A DNA stretch of 64,000 nt from Candidatus Limnocylindrales bacterium (GTDB lineage: Bacteria; Moduliflexota; Moduliflexia; Moduliflexales; JAUQPW01). Positions within the stretch are counted from its first letter, which is position 1. The number at the start of each line of letters is the position of its first letter. Positions 14,771 through 25,571 of the stretch are shown here, one piece after another. Under the pieces are notes generated by a model. That model worked only from the letters and a program-made list of their open reading frames with translations. It was not told the origin of the DNA and did not search any database. The translations under genes were made by a program, and so were the position numbers. The stretch spans positions 62,001 to 126,000 of the forward strand of contig DATMBG010000044.1 of assembly GCA_035559535.1 (NCBI GenBank), given 5' to 3'.

Positions 14771-15481
14771 TCAGTTAGATCTCTCCTTGAGGGTCTCAAC
14801 GTTTTGTTTAATTTCTTCGATTTCATCCTTGAGCTTCTCCAGGGAGATCCTTTGAGCCATGAGGTAAATATAAAACAGTGTAAAAGCTAACAGGCAAACC
14901 ATTAAGGTTAAAGCCATCTCAAGAGCTAAACCGGAGGACCCGGGTTCCCCTCCAATCACCGGTTTGGGATGAATCGTCCGCCACCAGCGGGTAGACATAT
15001 AGACCAAGGGTACATCCAGAAAAGCCAGAATTCCAAATACGGCGGTAAATCGAGAGGTCTTGGAACTCTCGCTGCTCGAACGTAACATCAAATAGGCCAC
15101 ATACATCAGCCAGAGGATAAGGGTGGTAGTTAACCGGGGATCCCAGGTCCACCAGACATTCCAGACCGGTCTCGCCCAAATGGGACCGGTTAATAAAACC
15201 AGAGAGCAGAAAACAACCCCAATTTCTGCGGAAGCATAAGCAATACGGTCCCATTTCCGTTCCCGTCGCCAGAGATAGAGGGAACTTGAAACGGCCACCA
15301 CAAAAAAAGCTAGAAAAGAAGTCCAAGCCGACGGCAAATGAAAGTAAAAAATACGCTGAACGATTCCCATTTTCTGTTCGGTTGGGGCATACATAAAAAT
15401 GAGATAAAGACCCACCGTCATGGTAAGAAAGGTCGCCCAACCCAGGAGATCCACCGGCGTATATCGAGGCGTTGATTTCAT
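14771..15481 (-). CDS. ccmC: Heme exporter membrane protein CcmC
   Basis: A 236-residue inner-membrane protein with six hydrophobic helices and a short cytoplasmic coiled-coil tail (EKLKDEIEEIKQNVETLKER). The periplasmic tryptophan-rich heme-handling motif is WWTWDPRLTT (about residues 110-120), with conserved His residues in flanking loops (FYFHLPSAW and RTIHPKP). It loads heme onto CcmE. It follows ccmB by 4 bp. The C-terminal coiled coil is longer than in most CcmC proteins. Confidence 0.95.
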   Translation of the reverse strand: MKSTPRYTPVDLLGWATFLTMTVGLYLIFMYAPTEQKMGIVQRIFYFHLPSAWTSFLAFFVVAVSSSLYLWRRERKWDRIAYASAEIGVVFCSLVLLTGPIWARPVWNVWWTWDPRLTTTLILWLMYVAYLMLRSSSESSKTSRFTAVFGILAFLDVPLVYMSTRWWRTIHPKPVIGGEPGSSGLALEMALTLMVCLLAFTLFYIYLMAQRISLEKLKDEIEEIKQNVETLKERSN

Positions 15482-15485
15482 TTAC

Positions 15486-16160
15486 TTACTCCTCTACAAC
15501 AAACTCGAAAGTAAGAAAAGAAGCTACTAAAAAAATGATATCAAAGGCTATCAATAAATGGAGCCAGGAGGTGATGTCGGATAGAGGTTTCTGAGCTAAA
15601 ATTCGGTCTGTTGCCTTAACCGCTCCGATTATAACAGGAACTACCACAGGAAACAGTAAGACCGGAAGCATCACCTCTCGGGTTTTGGTATGAATAGACA
15701 TAGCTGAAAATAAGGTCCCTACCGAAATGAATCCAAGGGTGCTCAGTAAAATAACCAGACCTAGCCCGGGAAGCAAGCTCAACAGGTTCAGATTGAAAAA
15801 AACCATAAAGATAGGAAGCGCTATCAGCTCCACAACACTCATGAATAAAAGGCTTCCCAACATTTTACCCAGATAGATAACACCCCGGTCAACTGGGCAC
15901 AGAAGTAATCCCTGGAAAGCTTCATTTTCTCGCTCCAGGATAAAAGACCGATTTAATCCAAGTACTCCTGCAAAGGTGAAGGCAATCCATAACGCTCCTG
16001 GAAGAGTCGTCTGAGGATCTGCACCCGGGTCGAGGGCGAAGTTAAAGATAACGATAACCAACAGCGTAAAGATAAACGTGGAAGAAAAGATCTCCCGGGT
16101 TCGCCACTCAGCCTTTACATCTTTCCAGGTAATGAACCAAACCTTCTGAAAGAAACCCAT
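15486..16160 (-). CDS. ccmB: Heme exporter permease CcmB
   Basis: A 224-residue protein with six predicted membrane helices. It has the N-terminal amphipathic WKDVKAEWRTREIFSS and the ILERENEAFQGLLLCPVDRG segment typical of CcmB. It pairs with the CcmA ATPase and CcmC. The gene is separated from ccmA by about 150 bp filled with an inverted repeat, unusual for these normally tightly packed genes. Confidence 0.95.
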   Translation of the reverse strand: MGFFQKVWFITWKDVKAEWRTREIFSSTFIFTLLVIVIFNFALDPGADPQTTLPGALWIAFTFAGVLGLNRSFILERENEAFQGLLLCPVDRGVIYLGKMLGSLLFMSVVELIALPIFMVFFNLNLLSLLPGLGLVILLSTLGFISVGTLFSAMSIHTKTREVMLPVLLFPVVVPVIIGAVKATDRILAQKPLSDITSWLHLLIAFDIIFLVASFLTFEFVVEE

Positions 16161-16308: not shown

Positions 16309-17013
16309 TTATCGAGCTTGTTCAACCCAGTAAAAGTAGGTTTTCCCGAAATCCTGGGTATCTATTTTCTGAATCGGTTCTAGATAAACCAATTTTCCCC
16401 TGACCAGAATACCCACCATATCCGATACTTCGAGTCCTTGAGAGATACTATGGGTAGTCATGATAACGGTCCTTTCCCGGGTGTGAACGGTCTGCAAGAG
16501 ATCGCGGAGCATCTCAGCGGCATGGAGATCTAATCCGGTGTAAGGTTCATCCAGAAACATCACGGCGGGATCATGGAGAATGGCCCTAGCAATGGATAAC
16601 CGCTGCTGCATGCCTCGGGAGTAAGTTCTTACCAGATCGTGCATACGGTCCTTTAAGCCTACATCTTCCAGAACCCGCTCGATGGTTGTCGGCAGATTTT
16701 GAAGGTCATACATCTTCCCATAGAACTTTAAGTTTTCATAGGCCGTCAGATTCGGATAAAGGTAGGTACTATGGGAGATTACTCCTATTTGTTTTCGAAC
16801 GGACTCCCCATCTTCCCGGGGATCTAAGCCTGCGATTTTTATCACTCCGGAGGTAGGTTTCATGAGTGTGGAGAGGATTTTGATAAGGGTGGTTTTGCCG
16901 GCTCCGTTGGGTCCAAAAATGGTAAGAAATTGGCCTTTCTCCAGCTTTAAGTTTATTCCTTTTAAAGCCTTAAAATTTCCAAAGGATTTGGTCAGGTTCT
17001 GGATATAAACCAA
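16309..17013 (-). CDS. ccmA: Heme exporter ATPase CcmA
   Basis: A 234-residue ABC ATPase with Walker A GPNGAGKTT (about residues 35-43), signature YSRGMQQRLSIARA and Walker B VMFLDEPYTGLD. It powers release of heme-loaded CcmE from CcmC in the inner membrane. Its position beside ccmB and ccmC sets the assignment apart from the many other ABC ATPases. It follows the upstream unknown gene by 7 bp. Confidence 0.93.
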   Translation of the reverse strand: MVYIQNLTKSFGNFKALKGINLKLEKGQFLTIFGPNGAGKTTLIKILSTLMKPTSGVIKIAGLDPREDGESVRKQIGVISHSTYLYPNLTAYENLKFYGKMYDLQNLPTTIERVLEDVGLKDRMHDLVRTYSRGMQQRLSIARAILHDPAVMFLDEPYTGLDLHAAEMLRDLLQTVHTRERTVIMTTHSISQGLEVSDMVGILVRGKLVYLEPIQKIDTQDFGKTYFYWVEQAR

Positions 17014-17020
17014 TGTGCCC

Positions 17021-17986
17021 CTACTTCTCCATTTCTAATAAGGTACGGGTCAATTCAATGAGCTTTTTCTTCTTGCGGGCCCGCTCCTTATGATAATTCT
17101 CCTCGGCTATATCTCCGGCCTCAAACCGATCATCCAGCTCTGCAATAATCCTGATCAATTCTTCCCGCTCTTGTTTTAAAGAAAGCCTGGGATTCCTGGG
17201 AGATCCTGATTTTCTCTTATTTTTGCCCAATCGGTTTTTAACATATACCGATAAAATCCCACCTACTATCAGAATACTTACAAGGACCGAAACGATCAAG
17301 CTCTGACGCTGATTATCCTGTTGTTCCTCGGGAGGTAATGGGACTATTCTGCTAGCATTTGAGTCGGGAAGTCCGGAACCCGGTTGCCCTTTTCCACTTC
17401 CCGGAATTAACTTAACCGGAATAACGACCCCTTTATCAAAATTTTCTCCGGCATATCGACGAAATAGCTGATCTCCCATTTGCACAGGAGGTTGCGCAAC
17501 CAATTGGGGACTTTCTACCTGGGTATCCGAATCTGCTATAAAAACATCCAGAAGTTTGGTAGGATAACTGATTCTGATCGAGAGGGTATAAGGGAAAGAT
17601 GAAATCTTCACATGGTAAGATACGGCCAACTTTAACTCACCTGGAGCTACCGGTTTATTATAATCAAATCCTCGATCGGTGACCGATACTGCATCGGCCA
17701 TTTCTTCGAGAAATTGAGGTGCAAAGAAACCCTCTGGAAGGTTAAAACTTAATACCTTGCTTCCTCCAGTACTCACCAGAGTTGCTTCACTTCTATTATC
17801 CAGGATAAGAACCTCGGTGATCCGAATCATGTCTCCCAGAATACGCAGCACTACATGTTGTCCGGATACCGTGATGGTTTCATCGCTGGTTGTAGTTTTC
17901 GATTCTGCGGCTTGAACACCCGTAAGTGAAAAAAGAGCTAACCAGATGTAGAGTCCAAAATATCCAAGATAAATGAATTTTTTCAA
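17021..17986 (-). CDS. Membrane-anchored beta-domain protein of the ccm operon, CcmI-like C-tail
   Basis: A 321-residue protein not recognised as a named family. It has a signal peptide (cleavage near VQAAES) and a periplasmic beta-rich domain (about residues 30-200). A transmembrane helix follows at about 227-249 (SLIVSVLVSILIVGGILSVY), then a cytoplasmic helical tail with EELIRIIAELDDRFEAGDI. The tail repeats the pattern seen in the neighbouring zinc-ribbon protein and in CcmI N-termini (hydrophobic-x-LD-F-x-G-x-I/L-x-E-x-x-Y). Its position between ccmF and ccmA strongly suggests a role in heme handling or apocytochrome presentation. Confidence 0.7.
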   Translation of the reverse strand: MKKFIYLGYFGLYIWLALFSLTGVQAAESKTTTSDETITVSGQHVVLRILGDMIRITEVLILDNRSEATLVSTGGSKVLSFNLPEGFFAPQFLEEMADAVSVTDRGFDYNKPVAPGELKLAVSYHVKISSFPYTLSIRISYPTKLLDVFIADSDTQVESPQLVAQPPVQMGDQLFRRYAGENFDKGVVIPVKLIPGSGKGQPGSGLPDSNASRIVPLPPEEQQDNQRQSLIVSVLVSILIVGGILSVYVKNRLGKNKRKSGSPRNPRLSLKQEREELIRIIAELDDRFEAGDIAEENYHKERARKKKKLIELTRTLLEMEK

Positions 17987-18008: not shown

Positions 18009-18569
18009 TTATAAACTTGAAACTAACTTGTTTCCACAATTGGGACAAAACTTATAAGTAGCCATATAAGTTTGCCCACAACTCTGGCAACTAAATTGAA
18101 CACGGGTTCCACATTCTGAACAGAATTTATCTTGAGCGGCCAGTAATTTATGGCAATTAGGACATTTTACTTCCAATGTCCCTGAAGAAGCATGGATTTG
18201 ACTTCGAGCCTTTTTCTTTTTGCGAAAAGCCAGGATTTCCTTCTCGATTTGATCTTCCAGGCTTTCGCCGTATTGATTTTTCTCCAGCTCATCGATTTGT
18301 TGGAGGACAAGGGTTGCATCGACCTTCAGTTGCTGCCGGAGTTGTTGATAATCCCCTTCTGATAATTTACCCATTTTATAATCAAAATCGAGTTCTTTAA
18401 TGGCTAAATAGAGATTTTCTTTTTTACGTTGGAGCTCTCGAAGGGAATAACTGGTCGTGGAAGATGAATCGATCCAGGAAGGTTTTTCTTCCCGTTTAAA
18501 AATCAAGGGATAGGTCACATAACAAATAACCCCCACCGAAAGAAGAATTACAATAAAGGCACTTAACAT
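18009..18569 (-). CDS. CcmI-like membrane protein with two C-terminal zinc ribbons
   Basis: A 186-residue protein. One N-terminal helix (about residues 2-22) is followed by a helical hairpin, LYLAIKELDFDYKMGKLSEG, typical of CcmI-type proteins. The C-terminus holds four CxxC-type knuckles (CPNCHK, CSECGT, CQSCGQ, CPNCGN), enough for two zinc ribbons, instead of the periplasmic TPR domain of proteobacterial CcmI. It probably acts at the membrane with CcmF. The zinc ribbons should be cytoplasmic or periplasmic depending on topology; the short N-terminus suggests cytoplasmic. Confidence 0.75.
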   Translation of the reverse strand: MLSAFIVILLSVGVICYVTYPLIFKREEKPSWIDSSSTTSYSLRELQRKKENLYLAIKELDFDYKMGKLSEGDYQQLRQQLKVDATLVLQQIDELEKNQYGESLEDQIEKEILAFRKKKKARSQIHASSGTLEVKCPNCHKLLAAQDKFCSECGTRVQFSCQSCGQTYMATYKFCPNCGNKLVSSL

Positions 18570-18687: not shown

Positions 18688-20703
18688 CTAAGCTCGACTC
18701 CATACTTTTGATCCTACCCTCCATTCCGGTTGCATGGCACGTTCACGTTCTTTAAGCTCTTCCAGGGTTGGAAGGGTAATAACAAAGGTTCCCAGCGTCA
18801 TAAAGAGAAACCCGCCGACCCAGATCCAGAGAACCATAGGGTTAATTATGAATTTAAACACCGCCGTATTATCTTCCTCGATGGCTCCGAGAACCGTATA
18901 AAGGTCTTCCTTCAGGGTTGAATAGATGGCTACCTCGGTGGTAACCATTTGATCGCCCCGCAGATAACGATGTTTTTCGGGAACCAGACCGGAAATTTTC
19001 TCTCCCTGGCGATAAACGAGGAGATCGGCAGAGGCAACGGTTTTATTGGGATCACTTTTAAAGGAAATTCCCTGGTATTTAATTCGGTAATCCCCGATAA
19101 TCGCAGATTCTCCTGGTTTCATGACCACTTCCTTTTCTATCTGGAAAGCGGAAGAACCTGCAATACCCACAAAGATCAATACAATGCCGAGATGGACAAT
19201 ATAGCCCCCATAGCGCCTGCGATTTTTAGAAATTAAGGTGAAAAAAGCGGTCAAATAATCTTCTCCGGTCATTTCTCGCCTGGCCAGAGTACCCCGGATA
19301 TACTCGAGGAGGATGGTCCCGGCTACAAACATGGCGATAACAAAAGCGAGTAGGGCCTTGAGGTGGTGGACTCCTGATAGAAACAAAAGGACACCACCCA
19401 GCAAGGCTCCGAAGGTAGGATACATAAAGCTTCGCTTTAAATGTTGCCAGGAGGCCTTACGCCAGGGAATCAAGGGGCCTATGCCGGTTAAAAGGAGCAT
19501 TAAAAGTCCGATTGGGACGTTAACTTGATTGAAAAAGGGAGGCCCAACAGTTATTCGGGTTCCCTGGATGGCTTCAGAGAGAGTTGGAAACATGGTTCCC
19601 CACAGTACGGTGAAGGCGATTCCTACGAAGATCAGATTATTGAGCAGGAAAATACTTTCCCGAGAGATAAAAGAGTCCAATTCATTTCTGCTCTTTAACA
19701 ATTCCCACCGTTTAACAATCCAGAAAACGGAAAAGACCAGGACAAGGGTTAAAAAAACCAAAAAGTAATATCCAAGGGAAGATTGGGCAAAGGCGTGTAC
19801 AGAGGAAACCACCCCACTTCGAGTTAAAAAAGTTCCAAAGATGGAAAGCATGAAGGTCAAAATAATCAGTGAAACGTTCCAGACCTTCAGCATATCTTTC
19901 TTTTCCTGGATCATGACCGAATGGAGGAAGGCTGTTCCCGTCAACCAGGGCATAAGTGAGGCATTTTCTACCGGATCCCAGGCCCAATAACCCCCCCATC
20001 CCAGTTCAAGATAGGCCCAATGAGCCCCCAGCAGAATACCTACACCCAGGAAGTACCAGGGGAAGATGGTCCACCGACGTGTACTCTTGATCCAGGTACT
20101 ATCCAATCGTCCTGTGATAAGGGCTGCAATGGCAAAAGCAAAGGGTACTGTAAATCCGACATATCCCAAATACAGGTTAGGAGGATGAATGATCATGTAG
20201 GGATTTTGAAGGAGTGGATTTAACCCGGCCCCATCTGCAGGAACCCTGGAGGGAGGTAGTACTGCAAAGGGATTTGCAGCAAAAAGGATCAGAACTAAAA
20301 AGAATAGGGCCGTTGACATCAGAACCGAATACACGTACGGCATAAGTTCCCGATTCTTATAACGATTTTGGGCCACCACAATGGCCGAAAATACCGATAA
20401 GATCCAAACCCAGAATAAGAGAGAACCCTCCTGTCCACCCCACCAGGCAGTTATTTTATAAAAGAGCGGCATGGCGCGATTAGAATGTTCTGCGACATAC
20501 CGGAGTTGAAAATTGTCGGTGATTAGAGAATAGATTAAACAAAACGACGCCAGGGTTAAAACCCCAAAAGCGGCCTGAATACCCTTTTCGGCACTTAATA
20601 TAAAATGATTTCTCCGGGTGCGAGCCCCCAGAACAGAAATCACCGGCACATATATACAAAGCCCGAAGGCGATCCATAAGGTAATATATCCTATATCGGC
20701 CAT
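18688..20703 (-). CDS. ccmF: Cytochrome c heme lyase subunit CcmF
   Basis: A 671-residue inner-membrane protein with about 14-15 helices. The tryptophan-rich heme motif is WGGYWAWDPVENASLMPWL (about residues 230-250), and conserved histidines lie in flanking loops (NPYMIIHPP, GVVSSVHAFAQSS). It has the C-terminal periplasmic domain typical of CcmF. It takes heme from CcmE and attaches it to CxxCH motifs of apocytochromes. Full family length. It lies directly downstream of ccmE. Confidence 0.96.
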   Translation of the reverse strand: MADIGYITLWIAFGLCIYVPVISVLGARTRRNHFILSAEKGIQAAFGVLTLASFCLIYSLITDNFQLRYVAEHSNRAMPLFYKITAWWGGQEGSLLFWVWILSVFSAIVVAQNRYKNRELMPYVYSVLMSTALFFLVLILFAANPFAVLPPSRVPADGAGLNPLLQNPYMIIHPPNLYLGYVGFTVPFAFAIAALITGRLDSTWIKSTRRWTIFPWYFLGVGILLGAHWAYLELGWGGYWAWDPVENASLMPWLTGTAFLHSVMIQEKKDMLKVWNVSLIILTFMLSIFGTFLTRSGVVSSVHAFAQSSLGYYFLVFLTLVLVFSVFWIVKRWELLKSRNELDSFISRESIFLLNNLIFVGIAFTVLWGTMFPTLSEAIQGTRITVGPPFFNQVNVPIGLLMLLLTGIGPLIPWRKASWQHLKRSFMYPTFGALLGGVLLFLSGVHHLKALLAFVIAMFVAGTILLEYIRGTLARREMTGEDYLTAFFTLISKNRRRYGGYIVHLGIVLIFVGIAGSSAFQIEKEVVMKPGESAIIGDYRIKYQGISFKSDPNKTVASADLLVYRQGEKISGLVPEKHRYLRGDQMVTTEVAIYSTLKEDLYTVLGAIEEDNTAVFKFIINPMVLWIWVGGFLFMTLGTFVITLPTLEELKERERAMQPEWRVGSKVWSRA

Positions 20704-20708
20704 GAATA

Positions 20709-20762
20709 GCAGGAGTTAAAAGTTAGAATTCAGAACTTTCCTTCTGACTTCTGACTTCTCCT
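20709..20762. repeat. Short hairpin of near-repeats between ccmE and ccmF
   Basis: AGGAGTTAAAAGTTAGAATTCAGAA pairs imperfectly with TTCTGACTTCTGACTTCTCC. The right arm is an exact tandem of TTCTGAC units. It fills the gap between the ccmF start and the ccmE stop. Same structural class as the other tandem-arm hairpins. Confidence 0.5.
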
Positions 20763-21198
20763 AATAAGACTTTAATTGTTCTTTGGATATATACTGCTGC
20801 TTATCCTCAGGCACATATTTGGAAGGACAAGCCGTCATGAGGGTTTTTGCGTGAAAAGTGCCATCGGCATCATAGCGACCTTCTATGATGACATCTGCGT
20901 CATCTTTGAACATATCCGGTATGATTCCTTTGTAATAGACGGGGAGTATACCGGTTCCATCCTTGTCTTTGACGTTAAATTTTACCTCTGTGGGTTGCGG
21001 GCCCTTGACAATGGATGCCGGAACTACCTTACCGGCCACTCGAACGCCTTCCCCATGGAAAGACTTACCTTTAGCCATCAACTCATCCACCGTCATATAG
21101 TAAACCATGTTATTACGGGCGCCTGCAAAGACCATATAGGTAATAGCCAGGGCGATCACACTACCTCCGATTACAAATTTTAATTTTTTCTTTTTCAT
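20761..21198 (-). CDS. ccmE: Heme chaperone CcmE, cysteine (CxxxY, System I*) type
   Basis: 145 residues from the preferred ATG at 21198; a TTG at 21216 would add six residues. One N-terminal membrane helix (about 8-27) is followed by an OB-fold periplasmic domain (VRVAGKVVPASI, VKFNVKDKDG, VYYKGIIPDMF). Where classic CcmE has the heme-binding His in HxxxY, this protein has C124-P-S-K-Y128 (MTACPSKYVP). The Cys variant defines System I*, known from sulfate-reducing bacteria and archaea and usually accompanied by loss of CcmH; no ccmH is seen here. It carries heme from CcmC to CcmF. Confidence 0.95.
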   Translation of the reverse strand: MKKKKLKFVIGGSVIALAITYMVFAGARNNMVYYMTVDELMAKGKSFHGEGVRVAGKVVPASIVKGPQPTEVKFNVKDKDGTGILPVYYKGIIPDMFKDDADVIIEGRYDADGTFHAKTLMTACPSKYVPEDKQQYISKEQLKSY

Positions 21199-21292
21199 GA
21201 ACCATTCAGCCACCAAGACATGAAGTTTAAAAAAGCGCTTACCACAAATTTTAGTAAGCCTTAGGGTCTCAATGTCTTTGTGGCCAATACCT

Positions 21293-22033
21293 TTAGCCCA
21301 GTTTTAACAACCAGGGAAACCATTCTGCCAGTTTACTGGCCAACAGAGTGAATTGATTGGTAAAGATGAGATATCCTACGAGGATTAAAAAGCTTCCACT
21401 AAACACCTCTACCACCGTAAAATACCGCTTAATCTTATTGAAAAAATCCATGAAAGCACTGGTTCCTATAGCCGTCAAAATAAAGGGGAGTCCAAGTCCC
21501 AGGGAATAGACAGAAAGAAGAACAATCCCCTTTAATACTGTTTCTTGCCCTCCGGCTAAAAACAAAATAGTTCCTAAGATGGGACCAATGCAAGGTGTCC
21601 AACCAAAAGCAAAGGCCAATCCCAATAAAAAGGAACGTACAAGCCGGGGTCTTTTTCTACCCGTTGGATGAAATCTTTTCTCATAATTTAAGAATTTTAA
21701 TTTAAATAAGCCTATCAAATGCAATCCAAAAACAATCACGATAAGACCGGCTATTTTGCTCAAAATGTTCATTTGGGAAAAAACAAGCTGCCCAAGGGCC
21801 GTGGCGGTAGCACCTAATAAAATGAATACAAGGGAAAAGCCGAAAACAAAGGTAAAGGAGCTAATAACTGTTTTTTTTAAGATCTTTTTACGGTCCCTGG
21901 AGTTTCGCATTTCATCTATGGAAACTCCTGAGGTAAACGCTATATAGGCCGGAACTAATGGGAGAACGCAAGGAGATATAAAAGAAATCAGCCCGCCTAT
22001 AAAAGCGGCCAGTACGGAAATCTCTCCACCCAT
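21293..22033 (-). CDS. ccdA: Thiol-disulfide transporter CcdA (DsbD transmembrane family)
   Basis: A 246-residue protein with six hydrophobic helices. The paired cysteines needed for electron transfer are in FISPCVLPLVPAY (helix 1) and GWTPCIGPILGTI (helix 4). It moves reducing equivalents from cytoplasmic thioredoxin to the periplasm, keeping the CxxCH cysteines of apocytochromes reduced for heme attachment. It lies 2 bp after the glutaredoxin-like gene and about 95 bp before ccmE, clearly part of the cytochrome maturation operon. Confidence 0.95.
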   Translation of the reverse strand: MGGEISVLAAFIGGLISFISPCVLPLVPAYIAFTSGVSIDEMRNSRDRKKILKKTVISSFTFVFGFSLVFILLGATATALGQLVFSQMNILSKIAGLIVIVFGLHLIGLFKLKFLNYEKRFHPTGRKRPRLVRSFLLGLAFAFGWTPCIGPILGTILFLAGGQETVLKGIVLLSVYSLGLGLPFILTAIGTSAFMDFFNKIKRYFTVVEVFSGSFLILVGYLIFTNQFTLLASKLAEWFPWLLKLG

Positions 22034-22496: not shown

Positions 22497-23729
22497 TTAT
22501 TTGTGGGGCGTATCGACCAAGGTTTCCTCTCCCCGAGTCAGCCTTCGCACCCGGTCGCTCGTTAACGTTTTTAAAAACGCCTCTAGATCGCTTATTTCTT
22601 GATCGCTGAGATCGAGCCTGACAATATCCTTATCTAAATTGGAATTGGGTTCGCCTCCTTTATTGTAGAAATCAATAACTTCCCGTAAGGTCTTAAGACC
22701 TCCATTGTGCATGTAAGGGGCTGTTAACTCGATATCACGTAGGGACGGGGTCTTGAAAGCTCCCAGATCCTGAGGTTGATGGGTAACTAAAAATCGACCC
22801 AGTTCAGAAAATCCTTCTGTAAGAGATAATCGGTTCAGTTTTTCTTCGGTTAATTGTCCACTTTCGGCCAATACCCGAACTTGTTGGACCAGGTACTCGA
22901 AGTTTGGGGTGGCTTTCCTGCCGATACCGATGTTATGATACTTGAAGTCGGTGAAGAAAGGGGAAGAATCTTTGAACTCGTGACAGATATGGCAACGGGC
23001 TTTTTTCTGGAATAATTCCCAACCTCGTCGAGCTGCTTCACTAATAGCTGTTTTATCTCCATCGATAAATCGGTCAAAGGGTGAATCCCCTGAAAGCTGG
23101 GTACGCTCAAAGGCTGCAATAGCTTTTGCAATAAGATCAATTGTGACCGGGCTTTTGAAGACCAGTTGAAATTGCTCCCGATAAGAAGGGATTTGTTGGA
23201 CCACATCGACTACAGCCTCATAGGATGGCATAGCCATTTCAACGGGATTGATGAGAGGCTGTTTAATCTGATCTTCTAAAGATTTCGCCCTTCCATCCCG
23301 GAATTGCTCAGGGTTAAATAGGGCATTTAAAATGGTTGGGGCATTGCGTGTGCCTTTTTTTCCACCAACCCCTTCAGACACAGGTTTTCCATCTGTGAAA
23401 GCGGCTTTAGGATCGTGACAGGTCCCGCAACTCACAGTTCGATCCACAGATAATCGCTTATCAAAATAAAGAGCTTTTCCCAAGGCAACTTTGGCTTCGG
23501 TCAGAGGATTATCTTCTGGAATAAACAACTCCCAGAGGTCTTCTGGAATACCCAGAGGGAATTCCATCTGAAACTTTCTGACTGGCTCAGGGGTGGCTGC
23601 ATAGGTAGAAAATAATAGGAAGCTTGCTGGGTAAGTTACAAAAAATCCCAAACCCATCACCGTAGCCGCGATAACCACCGGTATGGTCCTTGGGAGAGGG
23701 GGTTTTCTCATGGTATAATACTTCTTCAT
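22497..23729 (-). CDS. Diheme cytochrome c peroxidase (CcpA/MauG family)
   Basis: A 410-residue exported protein. An N-terminal signal-anchor (about residues 16-42) precedes two heme c sites, CGTCH (101-105) and CHICH (246-250), in the order and spacing of bacterial diheme peroxidases and MauG. Other family landmarks are LGKALYFDKRLSVDRTVSCG, GKKGTRNAPTILNA and FKTPSLRDIELTAPYMHNGG. It would reduce hydrogen peroxide with electrons from a small cytochrome, or oxidise a protein partner as MauG does. It depends on the neighbouring Ccm system. It is divergent from an ECF sigma gene. Confidence 0.93.
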   Translation of the reverse strand: MKKYYTMRKPPLPRTIPVVIAATVMGLGFFVTYPASFLLFSTYAATPEPVRKFQMEFPLGIPEDLWELFIPEDNPLTEAKVALGKALYFDKRLSVDRTVSCGTCHDPKAAFTDGKPVSEGVGGKKGTRNAPTILNALFNPEQFRDGRAKSLEDQIKQPLINPVEMAMPSYEAVVDVVQQIPSYREQFQLVFKSPVTIDLIAKAIAAFERTQLSGDSPFDRFIDGDKTAISEAARRGWELFQKKARCHICHEFKDSSPFFTDFKYHNIGIGRKATPNFEYLVQQVRVLAESGQLTEEKLNRLSLTEGFSELGRFLVTHQPQDLGAFKTPSLRDIELTAPYMHNGGLKTLREVIDFYNKGGEPNSNLDKDIVRLDLSDQEISDLEAFLKTLTSDRVRRLTRGEETLVDTPHK

Positions 23730-24165
23730 ACTTAGGCTTGCAGGACCGGTACGGTTAGATTATATTAGTTTTACCATCCGTTTTTTTATTTAATTTATTT
23801 CTGTAATTCTTACTTTTAAGTTATCACCGTCCTATCGGTTTTTTTATTCCTTAATAAAAAAATTTTTTATCCTGGGGAATAACTTGCCCTGCTAGATTGT
23901 GATTCCTTATAAAAAGGCTTATAAAAAGGAAGAGTTAATAAATTTTTTATTTGCGGACTGGCCTTGAGGCTTGTTTCATTGAATGAATGATTCAATATTA
24001 AGTTTAGCAGTCTTTACTTTAAGACAGATATCTATCAAATCTGGTTAATGCGAGTTCTCATATTTAACCGGAATGGTAGAAGGAGCATAAAGTTGTACTC
24101 ATTGCCATGCTTCATCAAGCACCCGTATCGGAATAGGTTCTCAAAGCACCGCGAAAAGGACGATA
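23730..24165. other. AT-rich divergent control region between the diheme peroxidase and ECF sigma genes
   Basis: 436 bp without a gene, clearly more AT-rich than its surroundings. It contains a 12-bp exact tandem repeat (CTTATAAAAAGG at 23906-23917 and 23918-23929) and a 7-bp palindrome (ATTGAAT / ATTCAAT at 23978-23996). A TATAAT (minus strand, 23764-23759) points at the peroxidase gene. The layout suggests a shared regulatory region, perhaps for the ECF factor. Confidence 0.5.
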
Positions 24166-24705
24166 ATGATCGGGCAGGGTGAGGACAAGGAGGGGCAGAA
24201 AAGCATCGAGCAAGCCATTCTTGAGTATGTGGAGGCACTCTATGGTTATGCCATGTCCTTAGCACGAAACCCGGTGGAGGCTGAAGATTTAGTACAGGAA
24301 ACGTATTTACGAGCCATCAAGGGAGCACGTCGCTCCATGCCCACCGGGGATCTAAAAGCCTGGTTATTCACGATCCTGCGTAATATTTGGATCAATCAAC
24401 GGCGGCGTGCTCAGGGGTCAGAATTGCTTCTTGGAATAGATATAGAGGGTCTGGAATCAGAGAGTGAATGGACGGCCAAAAATCAACAGCGCCCGGATAC
24501 AATATTTGAGCAAGGACTACTACGGGAAAATATTCGAATCGCTTTGGAAAGTTTACCTGAGGCCTTTCGTGAGGTCATTGTCTTGCGTTGTATGGAGGGA
24601 TTCAGTTATAGCCAGATAGCTGAGATTTTAGGTTGTCCGGTTGGAACGGTCATGTCACGTATCAATCGTGCCAGAGCTGAATTACGCCGTCGGTTGAACA
24701 AATAG
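24166..24705 (+). CDS. ECF-type RNA polymerase sigma factor
   Basis: A 179-residue protein. The sigma region 2 helices (LYGYAMSLARNPVEAEDLVQ, then ETYLRA and LFTILRNIWINQRRR) bind core polymerase and the -10 element. Region 4 (LPEAFREVIVLRCMEGFSYS, then QIAEILGCPVGTVMSRINRA) binds the -35 element. There is no region 3, as expected for ECF factors. An AAAAGGA site precedes the ATG. It is followed 14-30 bp later by its probable membrane anti-sigma factor, and divergent from a diheme cytochrome peroxidase, so an oxidative or heme-related regulon is plausible. Confidence 0.95.
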   Translation: MIGQGEDKEGQKSIEQAILEYVEALYGYAMSLARNPVEAEDLVQETYLRAIKGARRSMPTGDLKAWLFTILRNIWINQRRRAQGSELLLGIDIEGLESESEWTAKNQQRPDTIFEQGLLRENIRIALESLPEAFREVIVLRCMEGFSYSQIAEILGCPVGTVMSRINRARAELRRRLNK

Positions 24706-24737
24706 GCCGATGGATCTTTGTGGGAAGTAGGAGAGCT

Positions 24738-25571
24738 GTGAACGAACACGTTATTTATCAAATTCCACTTTACCTGGATAACGAATTACAGGGAGACGAA
24801 CAACGTCTGTTTGAAGCGCACATCAACGCCTGTGCCAGTTGCTGGGCAGCTTTAGAGTATGAACGCCGACTGATTTTGGCAATTCATCAGGCACGTCCTT
24901 TATATTCTACACCAGAAGGGTTAAGGGAGAAGATTGAGCAGATCCTGCAAAATCATCAACCCATTTCGAAAAGATTTTCCTCTCGTACCCGGAGAGTCTT
25001 TGTGGCTATCGTGGTTGTTCTGGGCCTGATACTGGCCTGGTTTATTGCTCGTCCAACCCATATCCCGTTGGTACGACCTTCTGAATTTGCTCTCGTTGCG
25101 GTGGATACTCACCAGCGATATACCCGTAATCAACTTCCATTGGAAGTGATCAGTAGCTCTCCAGAAGAAATTTCCACGTGGTTTGCCGGTAAATTACCTT
25201 TTAACCTGAAATTACCTAATTATCCTGAAGATTTGAATCAGTCCAAGCCTTATGAAATCGTCGGTGCCCGACTGATTGGTTTCAAGCAAGATTATGCAGC
25301 CCATGTGGTCTATCGTTTGCACAATCGTCCCATTTCTTTAGTTGTTACTTCGGAAACTATTGCACAACCTGCCGGGGGGGAGAAAATTCCCTGGCAAGGA
25401 CTTTTGTTCCATTTTGATGTGATTAACGGTTGGAAAGTCCTTACCTGGTCCGATAAAGGATTAACCTATGCCCTCGTGTCTGATTTTGAAGAGCACGGCC
25501 AGGCCTCTTGTGTAGTTTGCCATTCTGGAGGGCAGGATCAGCATAAATTTGAAGGTTTAAAATTCAGATAA
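24738..25571 (+). CDS. Transmembrane zinc-finger anti-sigma factor with C-terminal CxxCH
   Basis: 277 residues from the GTG at 24738, chosen because AGGAGA lies just upstream (an earlier GTG at 24720 is also open). The N-terminal zinc-binding anti-sigma motif is H28-x3-C32-x2-C35 (HINACASC). A transmembrane helix (about 86-103, VFVAIVVVLGLILAWFIA) leads to a periplasmic domain of about 170 residues. This domain ends in SCVVCHSGG (C258, C261, H262), an exact c-type heme attachment motif. It should hold the adjacent ECF sigma at the membrane and release it on a periplasmic signal. The CxxCH could be a covalent heme or redox thiol sensor, or merely a metal site. Confidence 0.88.
   Translation: MNEHVIYQIPLYLDNELQGDEQRLFEAHINACASCWAALEYERRLILAIHQARPLYSTPEGLREKIEQILQNHQPISKRFSSRTRRVFVAIVVVLGLILAWFIARPTHIPLVRPSEFALVAVDTHQRYTRNQLPLEVISSSPEEISTWFAGKLPFNLKLPNYPEDLNQSKPYEIVGARLIGFKQDYAAHVVYRLHNRPISLVVTSETIAQPAGGEKIPWQGLLFHFDVINGWKVLTWSDKGLTYALVSDFEEHGQASCVVCHSGGQDQHKFEGLKFR

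Follow-up and report, generated by a model that had tools for sequence, protein, structure and literature searches.

A putative heme-c sensing anti-sigma factor and its association with cytochrome respiration and maturation genes

The Ccm machinery attaches heme to CxxCH motifs in the periplasm, and an anti-sigma factor whose periplasmic domain ends in such a motif raises the question of what a cytochrome signature is doing at the end of a transcriptional regulator. We examined this question for a gene pair in a 64,000-nucleotide stretch of a contig from Candidatus Limnocylindrales bacterium (the window hereafter), and consider it probable that the protein is an anti-sigma factor with a heme-c sensor, and that its cognate sigma factor directs genes for cytochrome respiration and cytochrome maturation.

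The anti-sigma gene (24738..25571, + strand) starts with GTG, 5 nt behind an AGGAG sequence at 24728-24732, and encodes 277 amino acids, with the stop codon ending at 25571. It follows, after a gap of 32 nt, a gene for an ECF sigma factor with sigma-70 regions 2 and 4 (24166..24705, + strand; Pfam Sigma70_r2 58.3 bits, Sigma70_r4_2 61.4 bits). The protein begins with a cytoplasmic zf-HC2 or ZAS domain (24750..24842, + strand; H4-x23-H28-x3-C32-x2-C35; Pfam PF13490, 33.9 bits versus a curated cut-off of 22.2) and continues with a single transmembrane helix at about residues 87–105 (24996..25052, + strand; mean Kyte-Doolittle hydropathy 2.7) and a periplasmic domain (25053..25568, + strand). Residues 258–262 of this domain, 15 residues before the C-terminus, read CVVCH (25509..25523, + strand), a putative c-type heme attachment motif. 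An N-in/C-out orientation with a periplasmic C-terminal part is expected from the positive-inside rule because an RTRR sequence lies on the N-terminal, cytoplasmic side of the helix. The first-pass annotation had described a zinc anti-sigma motif, one helix and a periplasmic end carrying CxxCH, and this observation holds: the zf-HC2 match and the ECF sigma gene directly upstream mark the protein as a predicted zf-HC2 ECF anti-sigma factor, and a conserved CxxCH on the Ccm (periplasmic) side, with topology assigned by the positive-inside rule, is one feature expected of a c-type heme protein.

CxxCH stands at the same position in 23 of the 54 homologues examined, distributed over four phylum-level groups, and identity among the carriers falls to about 25–30%. 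Residue shuffling of the protein generates CxxCH in 0.2% of trials, and a chance origin is excluded because 23 sequences share the motif at the same place. Conservation in close homologues, on which the first-pass annotation had staked its reading, was found in an orthologue of 97% identity (L006/L007; the host phylum is represented by four genomes), in a homologue of 59% identity from another phylum (G365, L012) and in 20 more distant sequences; the 97% orthologue was the sole match in a scan of genome contigs. Homologues from the phylum of G088 (probably Methylomirabilota, 95 genomes) include a clade, 46–100% identical to L014, that uniformly ends in SEIGxxxCxxCH and a tail of 16–18 residues, and the fourth group (the phylum of G178, probably Myxococcota) supplied four more CxxCH homologues that end in GRASCAVCHG with the spacing seen in the window. 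This fourth group came from a whole-phylum search, not from a scan with a module profile over 385 genomes (approximately one per family), in which CxxCH was confined to the three groups already known.

Within the first three groups, all 19 sequences checked have exactly two periplasmic cysteines, both belonging to CxxCH, and the histidine of the motif is as invariant as the two cysteines (19/19), with variable residues between them. The 31 homologues of the same domain without CxxCH mostly end in an SDLxxxxLLxxA-like helix instead, and the three weak homologues found on plasmids (23–26% identity) aligned no further than query residue 249 and did not reach the motif. Searches of the PDB by sequence and by profile gave no relative. 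One homologue without CxxCH (L013, G061) has a periplasmic insert with CRLC and CELC, six cysteines in all, and may represent a separate metal or thiol sensor built on this scaffold. In G365, the sigma gene that precedes the one for the CxxCH anti-sigma factor (L012:2421-3025) is split across two frames, either by an assembly error or by a real break.

The periplasmic module is not tied to a single output domain. In two genomes of one genus (L076 and L077), the same helix, domain and CxxCH stand behind a receiver domain that replaces zf-HC2 (Pfam Response_reg 83–87 bits), and sequence comparison thus presents the module as portable between output domains. The resulting order of receiver domain, membrane helix and periplasmic CxxCH domain (L076:8007-9086, L077:7583-8614) is an unusual architecture for receiver-domain proteins. 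Anti-sigma trees inferred with the motif columns omitted place CxxCH in two or three positions; constraining it to one clade was not rejected (AU p 0.35 and 0.39), nor was a single CxxCH clade in the sigma tree (AU p 0.48). The history of the motif is possibly one of a single gain followed by losses, or of repeated gains on one scaffold.

Ccm genes and a diheme peroxidase had been noted beside the anti-sigma gene, and Pfam and NCBIfam models bear this out. The sigma/anti-sigma pair diverges from a MauG/MbnH-like diheme peroxidase gene (22497..23729, - strand; Pfam CCP_MauG 190.9 bits) and from a ccm run that includes a ccdA/DsbD-like thiol transporter (21293..22033; DsbD_TM 66.1 bits), the heme chaperone gene ccmE (20761..21216; CcmE 97.8 bits), the heme lyase subunit gene ccmF (18688..20703; CcmF_C 220 bits), the ABC ATPase gene ccmA (16309..17013; TIGR01189 above cut-off), ccmB (15486..16160; CcmB 107.4 bits) and ccmC (14771..15481; Cytochrom_C_asm 108.8 bits), all on the - strand. 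The window CcmE is a CxxxY variant, with TACPSKY in place of HxxxY, and the CcmE of G365 (L133) likewise reads RCPSKY. Two genes on the - strand separate ccmA from ccmF (17021-17986 and 18009-18569), one without a Pfam match and the other encoding a double zinc-ribbon with an N-terminal hydrophobic stretch.

Loci of relatives were compared by means of a codon-model gene caller suited to GC-rich DNA and blast clustering. Most loci in the phylum of G088 share one order, in which sigma and CxxCH anti-sigma genes are followed by genes for a cupredoxin/carboxypeptidase-regulatory-like protein, a TAT metallophosphoesterase, a SoxA/TsdA-like cytochrome c, a SoxYZ fusion, CcoN, CcoOP (with three CxxCH), small subunits and CtaG; in G088, G429 and G470 this cbb3 cassette continues on the same strand into ccmA, B, C, E and F. 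The same cassette occurs in G365, of a second phylum, where it diverges from the sigma/anti-sigma pair, and in the host itself, where it lies on another contig (L081) with a CcoN of 75% identity and no adjoining sigma pair. L081:2996-14383 (host contig C30) and L029 exemplify a compact form common to three phyla, with a cupredoxin-like protein, TAT metallophosphoesterase, cytochrome c, SoxYZ fusion, in some cases a YVTN propeller, and a cbb3 oxidase with fused CcoOP. The loci L172-L175 have a different order, of MauG-like peroxidase, metallophosphoesterase, cytochrome, sigma and CxxCH anti-sigma genes, and their peroxidase is 48–51% identical to that of the window.

Of 14 informative CxxCH loci from outside the genus of the window, 13 carry cassette genes (L072 is the exception, and L064 runs to a contig edge; the receiver-domain loci L076 and L077 also have no adjacent cassette). 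Among 22 matched loci without CxxCH, several of them shorter than 12 kb, none has CcoN, SoxYZ, ccm or peroxidase genes, and three show isolated matches to other cassette genes. Across the 95 genomes of the phylum of G088, the cassette CcoN is present in all 15 genomes with CxxCH versus 13 of the 80 without it (Fisher p 3e-10, with kinship not corrected). The suggested link of CxxCH to ccm and peroxidase neighbors therefore stands up against matched controls, as a cbb3 oxidase with ccm in one phylum and as a peroxidase operon in another.

A shared promoter motif offers a further connection between the pair and these genes. In 14 loci, GGGAATAA-N14/15-CGTAGTA lies upstream of the sigma gene; 13 loci share GGAATAA-N14/15-CGTA at this position, with the consensus CAGGGAATAA-N14-CGTAGTAC, and L072 also has it (score 26.9). 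Top scores in control loci without CxxCH range from 7 to 15, and one of them (L142) has an exact -35 and no -10. In G365, the cassette is preceded by a strong site (26.9) and the divergent propeller gene by an identical -35; the motif was looked for and not found in L172-L175. The pattern GGGAATAAN{14,15}YGTNNT has one match in each of the genomes of G088, G429 and G471, at the sigma promoter.

In the window, a putative ECF promoter, TGGGGAATAA-N15-TGTGATTC, lies upstream of the sigma gene (23873..23905, + strand) and was recognized by a -35 motif worked out in another phylum. A comparable candidate site, CCGGGAATAA-N14-TGTTTTAA, lies upstream of the unlinked cbb3 cassette of the host, at L081:2778. 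The AT-richer host genome has nine matches to the pattern versus six for a reversed control; judged against the ORFs, the sigma and cassette sites alone are upstream of a same-strand gene, and the other seven are inside or antisense to ORFs. The host case rests on the -35 and on position because relaxation of the -10 to TGT followed inspection of the host sites, and the window sigma site ranks only about 11th in the window under the weight matrix of the other phylum because its -10 differs from that matrix. A peroxidase promoter candidate, AAGGAATAA-N14-CGGTGATA (- strand, near 23850), scored below the best weight-matrix matches in the window and was rejected.

We hypothesize that the Ccm machinery fixes one c-type heme on the C-terminal CxxCH of the periplasmic sensor domain, and that the redox state, ligand state or presence of this heme would be transmitted across the membrane by the single helix to the zf-HC2 domain, predicted to hold or free the ECF sigma factor. 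Freed sigma factor would read promoters of the form GGGAATAA-N14/15-(C/T)GT and switch on its own operon together with genes for periplasmic c-type electron transfer, namely the cbb3 oxidase cassette, joined in several lineages by ccm or a diheme peroxidase. We infer heme attachment, the direction of the response and the sensed signal; heme is the most economical reading because both cysteines and the histidine are equally invariant, the intervening residues vary and the neighbors are cytochrome genes. As to the signal, the regulon points to oxygen or to the redox state of the cytochrome c pool, the co-location with ccm allows a reporter of maturation capacity and the peroxidase operons fit peroxide; heme supply or a gas may also be what is sensed. 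The only other invariant histidine, H125, could be a distal heme ligand and is family-wide (19/19 sequences with CxxCH, 24/26 without); the 19 CxxCH proteins compared share no invariant methionine, and no heme-specific distal ligand is visible among them. Similarity to known heme sensor domains was not detected, and an AlphaFold2 model of the window protein, built with one close relative, was unusable (pLDDT 45.7) for a fold search or for comparison with the Cache fold of sCache_heme, in which CxxCH is an insert between strands 3 and 4.

In another reading, CxxCH mimics a client of cytochrome c maturation and reports that process itself, so that the attached heme need not sense anything. A shortage of heme or of Ccm capacity would leave the motif unmodified (reduced or as a disulfide), free the sigma factor and raise expression of ccm and cytochrome genes. 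Among periplasmic features, CxxCH alone sets its carriers apart from their homologues, and ccm forms one run with the anti-sigma gene in three genomes and is divergent from it in the window, both of which suit this reading; however, in G365 and L172-L175 the system occurs with no ccm nearby (the edge of L172 holds only a weak match to a generic ABC ATPase), and the cassette chiefly carries an oxidase rather than Ccm. We regard maturation reporting of this kind as unlikely.

It is also improbable, in our estimation, that the motif is heme-free and acts as a periplasmic switch based on thiol/disulfide chemistry or on a metal (copper, zinc). Redox switching through CxxC is known in the anti-sigma factors RsrA and RslA (PMC3184428), and the cassette encodes copper proteins, namely the cbb3 oxidase and a cupredoxin-like protein, with a CcoI-like ATPase in L081. 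Such a switch is at odds with the invariance of the histidine, which equals that of the cysteines, and with the genes for c-type cytochromes and Ccm next door; CcmE is present in 15 of the 15 genomes checked, and Ccm generally modifies accessible periplasmic CxxCH. Finally, the protein might be an ordinary zf-HC2 anti-sigma factor with CxxCH as a passive relic of its lineage and no part in signaling, given that the remainder of the domain is common to many homologues that lack the motif; yet a relic would have had to persist across four phylum-level groups, in 23 sequences, as the domain around it diverged to 25–30% identity, and to keep its specific tie to cytochrome loci, and we find this very hard to credit. 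The heme-c sensing anti-sigma factor is accordingly the reading that we carry forward, and the first-pass proposal of an ECF system that senses through covalent heme is partly supported, with indirect evidence for the covalent heme.

Each part of the proposed system resembles something described. Membrane ZAS anti-sigma factors of the RslA type share the zf-HC2 domain, the sigma gene directly upstream and membrane association, but the known redox switches work within the sigma-binding domain, by means of CxxC and zinc (PMC3184428), whereas here an additional CxxCH ends the periplasmic domain. Chemoreceptors, histidine kinases and GGDEF/EAL proteins include examples with heme-c sensor domains (PMC8396549, PMC12889525). 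Among these domains, sCache_heme (DUF3365, Tll0287), including Geobacter GSU0582 and GSU0935, is a periplasmic sensor with an acquired short CxxCH that is portable across outputs (PMC12889525, PMC8396549); the gain of a cytochrome-derived CxxCH by a Cache domain has been described (PMC12889525). The present module differs from sCache_heme in its output, an anti-sigma or receiver domain, in the position of CxxCH at the extreme C-terminus and in the lack of detectable sequence similarity: eight members gave no Pfam match to the DUF3365/Cache profile at E<=1. The term "sigma" is absent from PMC12889525. DcrA of Desulfovibrio vulgaris also uses a periplasmic c-type heme, for redox or oxygen sensing (PMC8396549), but is a chemotaxis transducer. 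The ECF systems HasS/HasI and HxuR/HxuI are likewise heme-responsive (PMC12670364), but in these heme on an outer-membrane TonB-dependent receptor signals to the anti-sigma factor, which bears no covalent heme; a TonB-dependent heme receptor near the pair was not recognized by eye in the ORF lists of the window, L029, L068, L172, L174 and L175.

A full-text literature search, which covered few subscription papers, returned no description of an anti-sigma factor combined with CxxCH, covalent heme or cytochrome maturation. We lean toward regarding these proteins as a novel class, found in at least four bacterial phyla, in which an anti-sigma or receiver-domain protein would use a covalent periplasmic heme to link transcription of cbb3 oxidase, Ccm or diheme peroxidase genes directly to Ccm throughput or to the state of the cytochrome c pool; CxxCH may have arisen on this scaffold more than once. 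The promoter motif, the candidate regulon and three mutable residues (C258, C261 and H262) provide concrete targets for experiment. To our knowledge, the control of high-affinity oxidases in these groups has been little studied. A heme-c sensor driving an ECF sigma factor would, if true, be a new output for a known type of input, and it would tie the genes for respiration and cytochrome maturation to the state of a heme supplied by the same pathway.
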